NCBI RefSeq assembly: GCF_902784195.1
Contig: NZ_CACZTX010000006.1
Location: 124,001-188,000, forward strand
Source: an uncultured Methanobrevibacter sp.
Lineage (GTDB): Archaea; Methanobacteriota; Methanobacteria; Methanobacteriales; Methanobacteriaceae
Length of the DNA stretch: 64,000 nt
Direction of reading: 5' to 3'
A program made the translations under genes and the position numbers. How positions within the stretch are numbered: position 1 is the stretch's first letter; the number at the start of each line of letters is the position of its first letter. Below are positions 24,734 through 27,151 of this stretch, in pieces. Below the pieces are notes generated by a model, which was not told where the DNA came from, ran no database searches, and was given only the letters and a program-made list of their open reading frames with translations.

Positions 24734-26017
24734 CTATTGTAAATGGTCAGGAACAGATTGTTTTTCAAAAATGTCATCGAAGCTTTGTGCTTCACGGATT
24801 ACGAAAGACTCTCCATTTTTAACAAGAATCTCTGCAGGGAGAGGTCTTGAGTTATAGTTGGAAGCCATAGTGTAACCGTATGCACCAGCATTCAAGATTC
24901 CTAAAATGTCTCCTTCTTCAATATCTGGAAGAGGTCTGTCTCTTGCAAACAAGTCACCGGATTCACAGACATTTCCTGCAACATCCACTTCTTGAGTTGG
25001 CTCTTCATTCATTTTGTTTGCAACTACAATGTGATGGTAGGAATCATACATAGCAGGTCTGAGCAAGGTGTTGAATCCAGCATCTACACCGATGAATTTT
25101 CTGTAGCTTTCCTTTACACTGTTTACTTCTACAAGAATTACAGAAGCGTCCCCTACAATGTATCTTCCTGGTTCAAGGTATAAGGTAGGTTCTCCCATAT
25201 CAAACTCTTCTAATTTTTCTTTGAATAATTTGACGTTTTCTTCTGCAAAGTGTTCCAAGTCAAGCAATTCCTCATCAGGAGTGTATGGAATTCCAACTCC
25301 TCCACCGAAGTCAATAAATTCAAAGTCAATTCCTGCTTCTTGGTGAACTTTTCCTGCAATGTTCATAGTGGATTCAATAGCTAATTTGAATGGTTCTGGG
25401 TCTAAAATACCTGAACCGATGTGAGAGTGCATACCTACAGGTTCAAATCCTAATTCCTTAGCTAATTTGTAAATCTCTACAGCTTCGGTTTCCATAATAC
25501 CGAATTTACTCATTTCTCCACCGGTAATGCAGTGACCGTGGTGACCAGCACCTACCATAGGGTTTACTCTAAATGAGATTTTTTTGCCATTAGGATCAAT
25601 GCTTTCTGCAAGTCTTTTAAGAGCAGAAACAGAGTCAATGTTCAAGATTACATCTTCACTGTTTACGTAATCCATTTCATCGTTTCTAATGTTGTTTCCT
25701 GTAAATAGGATTCTGTCTCCAGAGAATCCCATTTTTTTACAGATGTATACTTCTCCAGGAGATACAGCATCAATGCAGCATCCTTCTTCCTCAAGGATTT
25801 TTAAAACAGCAATGTTTGTATTTGCTTTACAAGCATAGAATACTTTGAATTTAGGATAAAATTTAGTGAAAGCGTTATAGAATCTGTTGTAGTTGTCTCT
25901 AATTCTTTCTTCATCAATTACATAGATAGGAGTGCCATACTGTTCTACAAGATCACATGCATCAGCACCGCCAATATCTAAATGGCCTTTGTCATTTATT
26001 TTTATATTTAAATCCAT
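24734..26017 (-). CDS. lysA: Diaminopimelate decarboxylase
   Basis: 427 residues, PLP-dependent, making lysine from meso-diaminopimelate. The PLP lysine lies in [11 protein letters not shown] near 60. [16 protein letters not shown] and [11 protein letters not shown] bind the phosphate and substrate region, and [11 protein letters not shown] supplies the active-site cysteine. GGAGGC precedes the ATG. A TATA-like sequence near 26109-26116 can be read in either direction; on the reverse strand it would give a leader of about 70 bases. Confidence 0.96.
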
Positions 26018-26130: not shown

Positions 26131-26240
26131 GGATTAGCCGACTCGAGAAAAATATGAAATAAAGTTTATTAAAAAAGGGTGAAAGCCTACCTAAGGCAAG
26201 AGTAAACCTAAAACTTTTTGTAAAATTCGACTGTCTAAAA
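26131..26240 (+). ncRNA. Candidate structured RNA between lysA and peptide gene
   Basis: A G+C-richer island with nested complementarity. TTAG/CTAA and TCGAG/TTCGA form an outer stem. AAAGTTT (26161-26167) pairs with AAACTTT (26211-26217). GCCT/AGGC forms an inner hairpin around 26186-26198. A TATA-like ATATAAAA (26109-26116) lies about 25 bases before the structure on the + strand, so it could be transcribed rightward. Alternatively it is the 3' region of the leftward peptide mRNA. It does not match a lysine riboswitch that I can recognise. Confidence 0.35.
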
Positions 26241-26246
26241 AATCAC

Positions 26247-26321
26247 TTATTCAACAAACAATAAAATCATTTGTATGAATAGAATTAATAACAATAAAAA
26301 TTGTTTGAAATTAAATTCCAT
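26247..26321 (-). CDS. 24-residue hydrophobic peptide (candidate membrane microprotein or type I toxin)
   Basis: The reverse strand encodes a 24-residue peptide beginning MEFNFKQF, then a continuous run of Leu, Ile, Phe, Val and Met with one Gln (LLLLILFIQMILLFV), ending in Glu. It would form one membrane helix. The ribosome site AAGGAGG is 7 bases from the ATG, among the strongest in the window. A TATA-like sequence at 26399-26411 would give a leader of about 58 bases. That leader contains TACCATTTCAGATAA ending two bases before GGAGG. The exact complement of those 15 bases lies at 26562-26576, inside a candidate small RNA. The arrangement resembles bacterial type I toxins, but no homology is claimed. 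Confidence 0.6.
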   Translation of the reverse strand: MEFNFKQFLLLLILFIQMILLFVE

Positions 26322-26504
26322 GATTTTTCCTCCTTTTATCTGAAATGGTATTCTTTTTAAGGTAGTGAAACCTAAAAAATAATTTTTAAATGGCTATTAA
26401 TAAATATAACGATTTTATGAACTTTAAATTTAAAAATAACTATTTTATTGACTTAAAAATAGAAAATTATAGTTATATTGTAAAAAATAATTAAATTGGA
26501 GAAT

Positions 26505-26606
26505 TATAAAAAAAGTAAAAAATTATCAAGGTTTAATGAATTCAAAAGAATTCAAAAACCTTACCATTTCAGATAATTGGAGATTTACTCAAAGAGAAAA
26601 ACTCCT
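26505..26606 (-). ncRNA. Candidate antisense small RNA with terminator hairpin
   Basis: Reading leftward: a TATA-like box at 26626-26638, an expected start near 26606, then a weak 5' hairpin (GGAG/CTCC). Next is the 15-base segment TTATCTGAAATGGTA (26576-26562). A strong two-part hairpin follows (AAACCTT/AAGGTTT and TGAATTC/GAATTCA, spanning 26528-26562), then ATAAT and two T-runs. The 15-base segment is perfectly complementary to the leader of the hydrophobic peptide mRNA next to its ribosome site. The same TATA-like sequence could instead serve the rightward NUDIX gene. Confidence 0.45.
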
Positions 26607-26713
26607 TAAAAATACTTTAAACATCATAATATATAAATCTAATCAAAGTTAAAAACTAAAATAACGAAATAAAAGCAATATAATAATCAAATAGAATTTT
26701 CATAGGTGAAAAA

Positions 26714-27151
26714 ATGAATGGTAAAAAGGACTGGGGATTGACAGTAAGAGGAGTAGTTAAAAAAGAGGGTAAGACACTAATCCTTAGAAGACATCCAAAA
26801 TCAAGAAACAATCCTCATAAATATGAGCTTCCTGGCGGTAAAGTGGATCCTGGAGAGTTCTTTGATGTGGCATTGATAAGGGAATTCAAGGAAGAGACTA
26901 ACCTTGATGTTAATATAGAAAGCTTGTTTGAAGTTGTTCAAGATGAATTCATAAGCAGAAGGACCAAACAGCCAATAAGCACAGTTCAACTGATGATGAA
27001 TCTGGAAATATTAAGTGGAGAAGTTCAGATAAGCGATGAGCATGATGATTTCAAATGGGTAAGCAATGAAGAGCTAAAAGAGCTTTACAATGAGGATATG
27101 CTTACTCCTACACTTAGAAAAACTTTAGAAAAAAGAGATTTTGAGATTTGA
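26714..27151 (+). CDS. NUDIX hydrolase
   Basis: 145 residues with a complete Nudix box, GGKVDPGEFFDVALIREFKEETNL near 40. The N-terminus (WGLTVRGVVKKEGKTLILRRHPKSRNNPHKYELPGGK) fits general Nudix proteins acting on nucleotide derivatives. The substrate is not predictable. AGGTGA precedes the ATG. It stands alone between the small-RNA region and a convergent membrane protein gene. Confidence 0.88.
   Translation: MNGKKDWGLTVRGVVKKEGKTLILRRHPKSRNNPHKYELPGGKVDPGEFFDVALIREFKEETNLDVNIESLFEVVQDEFISRRTKQPISTVQLMMNLEILSGEVQISDEHDDFKWVSNEELKELYNEDMLTPTLRKTLEKRDFEI

Follow-up and report, generated by a model that had tools for sequence, protein, structure and literature searches.

The NUDIX-lysA gap of an uncultured Methanobrevibacter

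The sequence under study, here called the window, is a stretch of 64,000 nt from an uncultured Methanobrevibacter sp. (NZ_CACZTX010000006.1, assembly GCF_902784195.1), and all coordinates in Table 1 are positions within it. Between a lysA-like gene (24734-26017, - strand) and a gene whose NUDIX-like name we assigned by reading the sequence (26714-27151, + strand) lies a gap occupied by a module with two candidate genes on the minus strand, one for a hydrophobic peptide of 24 residues and the other for a small RNA complementary to the leader of the peptide mRNA. Since a conserved 3'UTR of the mRNA belongs to the module, its limits are wider than those first given.

Table 1. Features of the module in the window.
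Feature	Position	Strand	Remarks
Whole module	about 26637-26171	-	wider than the 26247-26606 of the earlier note
TATA-like box of the small antisense RNA, TTTATATA	26630..26637	-	hairpin 1 starts 28 nt downstream
Small antisense RNA, putative antitoxin, about 100 nt	26505..26609	-	covariance model matches homologues in 10 species
Hairpin 1 of the antisense RNA	26579..26605	-	double changes in the family preserve the stem
Anti-SD CUCC, end of the 3' arm of hairpin 1	26582-26579	-	
Antisense stretch TTATCTGAAATGGTA, complement of the peptide mRNA leader	26562..26576	-	
Hairpin 2, core GAATTC TTTT GAATTC, probable terminator hairpin ahead of the T-runs	26528..26562	-	
TATA-like box of the peptide mRNA, TTATATTT	26402..26409	-	5' hairpin lies 33 nt downstream
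5' hairpin of the peptide mRNA, TTTAGGTTTCACTACCTTAAA	26356..26376	-	
CTACCT, 3' arm of the mRNA 5' hairpin	26365-26360	-	alternative partner in the 3'UTR
Target of the antisense RNA, TACCATTTCAGATAA	26336..26350	-	hypervariable among loci
Shine-Dalgarno (SD) GGAGG of the peptide	26329..26333	-	
24-residue hydrophobic peptide MEFNFKQFLLLLILFIQMILLFVE, putative toxin, including stop codon	26247..26321	-	homologues in related species
Post-stop segment GTGATTTTTT	26237..26246	-	pairs with the SD-start region AAAAATCAU
Conserved 3'UTR hairpin of the mRNA	26178..26219	-	
AGGTAG in the 3'UTR hairpin	26192-26187	-	pairs with CTACCT of the 5' hairpin

The small RNA consists, in this order, of hairpin 1, the antisense stretch, hairpin 2 and the T-runs, and its 15-nt complement of the target sits about 210 nt upstream of the peptide leader. 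Complementarity of this length was reached in none of 500 dinucleotide shuffles of the gap, the maximum being 14 nt, in 9 of the 500. Beyond the 15 nt, and after a 2x2 mismatch, the CUCC that ends hairpin 1 faces the GGAG of the SD; a repeat search delimited the complementary arms as 29 nt with 83% complementarity. When the antisense RNA is folded alone (z = -3.0), AAUUAUC of the antisense stretch is paired and UGAAAUGGU is left as an exposed bulge. The earlier note on this DNA had described the hydrophobic frame with its GGAGG, the leader segment with its exact complement, the exposed bulge and a TATA-like box belonging to the RNA segment; all of these were found, with a pairing longer than it had claimed and another box ahead of the mRNA. 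The region 26200-26720 gave no Rfam match up to E = 5.

A family of modules found only in the genus

A BLAST search of the window's genome with this region gave one real paralogue (C1:400143-400682), which has the same anatomy with a different complementary pair, the rest being AT-rich noise. Peptide, DNA, pattern and covariance-model searches were then combined over 19 genomes of the genus and yielded at least 27 complete modules in 11 of the 19 Methanobrevibacter species, distributed in seven peptide groups; these counts, taken mostly from metagenome or draft assemblies, are lower bounds. Group A, to which the window module belongs, is present in 6 species, groups B and C comprise 7 loci together, group D 4, groups F and E 4, group H 3, and group J 6 loci with a peptide of 39 residues. 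Hairpin 2 is kept in all groups, and the sole variable pair of its core is a U-A to C-G exchange. The genome of the window holds five complete modules (A, B, D, F and J) and one solitary RNA, and two J modules are found in one completed genome of a relative, G003, on its minus strand at about 873,200-873,650 and 1,355,450-1,355,900. In the window's own genome modules are paired at 4-6 kb, J with B (C1:396.1k, C1:400.2-400.7k) and D with F (C2:83.3k, C2:89.6k), as if they clustered in certain regions.

A DNA pattern scan of 84,980 genomes located true relatives solely in Methanobrevibacter, including M. olleyae SIG14; the matches outside the genus are due to chance, with no similar peptide there. 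Likewise, no relative outside the genus was detected by peptide search and a second covariance model among 139 genomes of the family. Weak peptide matches in other genera mostly lie inside longer open frames or contain stops, and the sole other-genus match for the J peptide (G082) is spurious, being inside a gene read as ferredoxin-like, on the opposite strand. The B peptide had no match in plasmids and the J peptide none in phages. Several relatives retain both flanking genes with an empty gap between them; thus the module is accessory. At the site that the A module occupies in other species, locus L196 (G015) has a PIN-domain-like (VapC-type) gene adjoining lysA, and locus L024 (G013:C19) shows, near 93,643, an intergenic repeated stretch of about 60 nt (cacaaaaagaaatttaaatacttaatcaagcagagtaaacc...).

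The small RNA covaries with its target

The 15-25 nt ahead of the SD are hypervariable among loci and the sequence of the RNA changes in step with them, as seen in the matching pairs TCTTTCAACTAAA / TTTAGTTGAAAGA at B_G016, TCGATTTTTCAAC / GTTGAAAAATCGG at B_G002 (with one G-U pair), TTGCAACATAGTAATAA / TTATTACTATGTTGCAT at D_G005 and AGGTTCTAAAGAAATT / AATTTCTTTAGAACCT at F_G000. In group H two mRNAs carry GGGGG in place of GGAGG, and for one of these the anti-SD of the RNA is CCCC.

We compared all RNAs with all leaders at 22 non-identical loci using a simple duplex model without accessibility, and obtained a mean energy of -27.7 kcal/mol for cognate pairs vs -13.1 kcal/mol for the other pairs. 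The cognate sum of -610 was not reached by any of 200,000 permutations (mean -303, sd 22, minimum -440), nor was it ever reached when shuffling was restricted to members of the same family. With the SD removed, the cognate value was -19.5 vs -7.8, again with 0 of 200,000 permutations as good (18 loci). Moreover, four J loci had been found by peptide search alone, and a matching RNA was present at the predicted place in all four, which constitutes an out-of-sample test. This prediction and the within-family permutation weigh most, because related loci are not independent.

Base-pairing of an RNA with the mRNA of the peptide, which characterizes the antitoxin of type I systems, is backed, at the level of sequence, by covariation at 22 loci, and an antisense mechanism of the RNA on the peptide mRNA is very likely. 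The comparison with related genomes that the earlier note had proposed came out strongly positive, with a conserved peptide and two complementary segments that co-vary, and so supports its suggestion of an archaeal type I-like system or a membrane peptide controlled by a small RNA.

Two genes in either order on one strand

The position of the RNA depends on the group. Groups A, B and C have it 290-360 nt upstream of the start codon; groups D, E, F, H and J have it 190-235 nt downstream of that codon, with a TATA-like box of its own. In every group it is on the strand of the peptide. In 16 of 18 distinct loci the best TATA-like box of the RNA is found at -28 or -31, and a box near -32/-33 precedes the 5' hairpin of the mRNA in most groups; in groups A-C this second box sits between the two complementary segments. 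The boxes at fixed offset, the occurrence of both gene orders and the solitary RNAs described below all suggest, from sequence, that the RNA is a separate transcript.

Predicted restraint of the mRNA by its own sequence

Throughout groups A-H a segment located at or right after the stop codon is predicted to pair with the SD-start region, and its sequence is group-specific: AUGAUUAU/AUAAUCAU in D_G016 and AUGUUUAU/AUAAACAU in D_G005 for group D, GUGAUGCA/UGUAUCAC in H_G014 and GUGGUGCA/UGCAUCAU in H_G016 for group H. The cognate pairing was equalled by 1 in 100,000 family permutations, although J and F show this occlusion only weakly, and for group A a window other than the post-stop segment pairs best. 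Restraint of the mRNA through occlusion of its own SD, another trait of type I systems, is hence predicted for the family.

The 3' arm of the mRNA 5' hairpin matches a conserved segment of the 3'UTR, with both sides changed at 3 of 7 pairs, a count that leans towards structure because the register of the short alignment was set by hand. In a separate permutation test of the 5'-3' duplex, 2 of 5040 arrangements were as good. Among the traits of type I loci, a primary transcript that is inert has been called a major hallmark (PMC6733600).

The peptide is small, hydrophobic and conserved

Groups A to H have a peptide of 24 codons and group J one of 39, both inside the range of small hydrophobic type I peptides (<60 aa), and the hydropathy of the best 19 residues is 2.0-2.8 in groups A, B, D, F and H and 1.1 in J. 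Summed over 10 orthologue pairs, group A shows 8 synonymous and 0 non-synonymous differences (pN/pS = 0); pN/pS is 0.14 for B and C, 0.28 for D and 0.19 for H, while selection is weak in group F (0.64). Of the five groups for which selection was measured, four thus show purifying selection on the peptide. In three of the four loci of groups F and E (L010:3634-3708, L103, L102) TTG replaces ATG as start at the same position, which may lower translation.

Searches of Pfam, NCBIfam and PADLOC gave no match for the peptide and no homology to a known toxin family, the bacterial type I toxins (Hok, Ldr, Ibs, TisB, Fst, TxpA, AapA and others) included; PHROGs returned weak matches only, to phage families of unknown function.

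The RNA outlasts the peptide

The RNA occurs without the peptide at seven sites (G004:C190, G002:C88, G017:C16, G008:C75, G015:C26, G000:C2 and G002:C56), the solitary RNAs of G000:C2 and G002:C56 being one orthologous pair. The RNA of G008 is identical to the D RNA of the window's genome, the peptide gene being absent from G008, and in G017 an A peptide is frameshifted next to an intact RNA. Among the loci found, no intact peptide lacks the RNA, apart from one cut by a contig end. Loss of the toxin first is what an addiction pair predicts, and these seven sites, partly of shared ancestry, provide modest evidence for it. The solitary H-type RNA lies directly upstream of a small zinc-ribbon/rubredoxin-like gene in two species (G000:C2:171456-171569, L158; G002:C56, L154) and may have been retained for another use.

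Interpretation

We interpret the locus, with a probability of roughly 0.8, as a type I-like toxin-antitoxin module encoded in an archaeal chromosome. At the level of sequence this reading has the support of both gene products, the co-evolved pairing, the separate promoter signatures, the swapped gene order, the purifying selection and the asymmetric loss; from these we infer that both RNAs are transcribed, that translation is blocked and that the peptide is toxic. One promoter would produce a short mRNA encoding a membrane peptide of 24 residues that forms a single helix, and a second one on the same strand an RNA of roughly 100 nt. The 3' arm of hairpin 1 of this RNA, together with the adjoining single-stranded stretch, would pair with a segment of the mRNA that begins about 30 nt upstream of the start codon and extends over the SD, thus blocking the entry of ribosomes and perhaps triggering decay. 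Two restraints in cis may add to this, one in which the SD-start region is paired with the sequence right after the stop codon and another in which the 5' hairpin of the mRNA switches to pairing with the 3'UTR. Peptide that escapes would insert into the membrane and halt growth.

The peptides could nevertheless be regulated yet harmless, and the RNA would then control a small membrane peptide of another kind, for instance one that modulates a membrane enzyme or signals stress. The case for antisense control is good irrespective of what the peptide does, and regulatory small hydrophobic proteins exist, but we regard this explanation as unlikely: an antisense specificity that is private to each copy and hypervariable, an accessory presence with the site empty in relatives, an RNA kept after loss of the peptide and several layers of silencing all fit a harmful product better.

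The window alone would also suit the alternative offered by the earlier note, a single long leader in which the SD is masked in cis by the complement folding back on it, since there the complement precedes the SD on one strand and the stretch as a whole does fold in this way (z = -3.6). Such a cis-leader or riboswitch would always have the complement upstream of the SD in the same transcript; however, in D, E, F, H and J it comes after the peptide and its 3'UTR, behind a TATA-like box of its own, in A-C the mRNA has a TATA-like box between the segments, and RNAs persist alone. A single self-inhibiting leader is therefore not a general explanation, and we consider it highly improbable. Scarcely credible is the idea that the complementary segments mark the ends of a small mobile element as its terminal inverted repeats, or are a product of chance, even though they form an inverted repeat, present in several copies per genome, in an AT-rich gap. 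The repeat differs at each locus while the flanking parts are conserved, and it lies inside the module, adjoining the SD; chance is rejected by the shuffles and permutations, and the covariation refutes both.

Relation to known systems

The type I-like module has counterparts of several kinds. CreTA of haloarchaea is likewise an archaeal toxin-antitoxin system with an RNA component; in it the toxin CreT is an RNA silenced by CRISPR-Cas with CreA, and so it differs from the present family in having neither a peptide toxin nor a direct antisense block. In hok/sok the Hok mRNA is inactive through pairing of its 3' end with the 5' region, on top of an antisense RNA; Hok has about 50 aa and Sok is an overlapping cis-antisense. 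The Methanobrevibacter modules share with it the small membrane peptide and, by prediction, the combination of 3'-5' mRNA pairing and antisense RNA, but here the peptide is without Pfam match and the RNA is encoded before or after it. The bacterial systems tisB/IstR-1, shoB/OhsC, zor/Orz and TimP/TimR, unrelated in sequence to our family, similarly join a short hydrophobic peptide to a neighbouring RNA with short complementarity to the leader; their RNA genes are mostly divergent, and we know of no tisB/IstR-1-like system with both gene orders in one family.

With aapA/IsoA the likeness extends to several chromosomal copies, a small hydrophobic (here putative) toxin, an antisense RNA over leader and SD, and a 5'-3' long-distance interaction of the mRNA, in our case predicted from sequence. 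IsoA is transcribed from the opposite strand; here, instead, RNA and peptide share a strand, with either of them first, the promoters are archaeal and there is no sequence relation. In Helicobacter pylori the aapA mRNA is kept inert by its 5'-3' long-distance interaction and transient hairpins, and 5'-3' long-distance interactions have been described in type I mRNAs (PMC6733600). TimP is reported to be a membrane-acting toxin under repression by TimR (PMC7667032).

By function the system is probably type I, outside every named bacterial family. According to a 2025 paper, type I systems had been known only in Proteobacteria, Firmicutes and Tenericutes (PMC12390103), and our literature search for archaeal type I systems found none, the papers retrieved reporting bacteria only. 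It seems likely to us that archaea evolved, independently of bacteria, a type I family in which the antisense RNA diverges with each copy and is private to it, the two genes share a strand in either order, and the mRNA is silenced twice over, through occlusion of the SD and through an interaction of its 5' and 3' parts. If so, type I systems would for the first time be known beyond bacteria. From a well-delimited archaeal family it would follow that toxic peptides came under antisense control on more than one occasion; it would also offer a clear archaeal example of an antisense RNA acting on the ribosome site, while its natural series of about 20 different RNA-target pairs lends itself to the study of how specificity diverges. 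The completed genome with two modules makes the proposal testable now and, the hosts being rumen methanogens, an addictive membrane peptide in them would be of practical interest.
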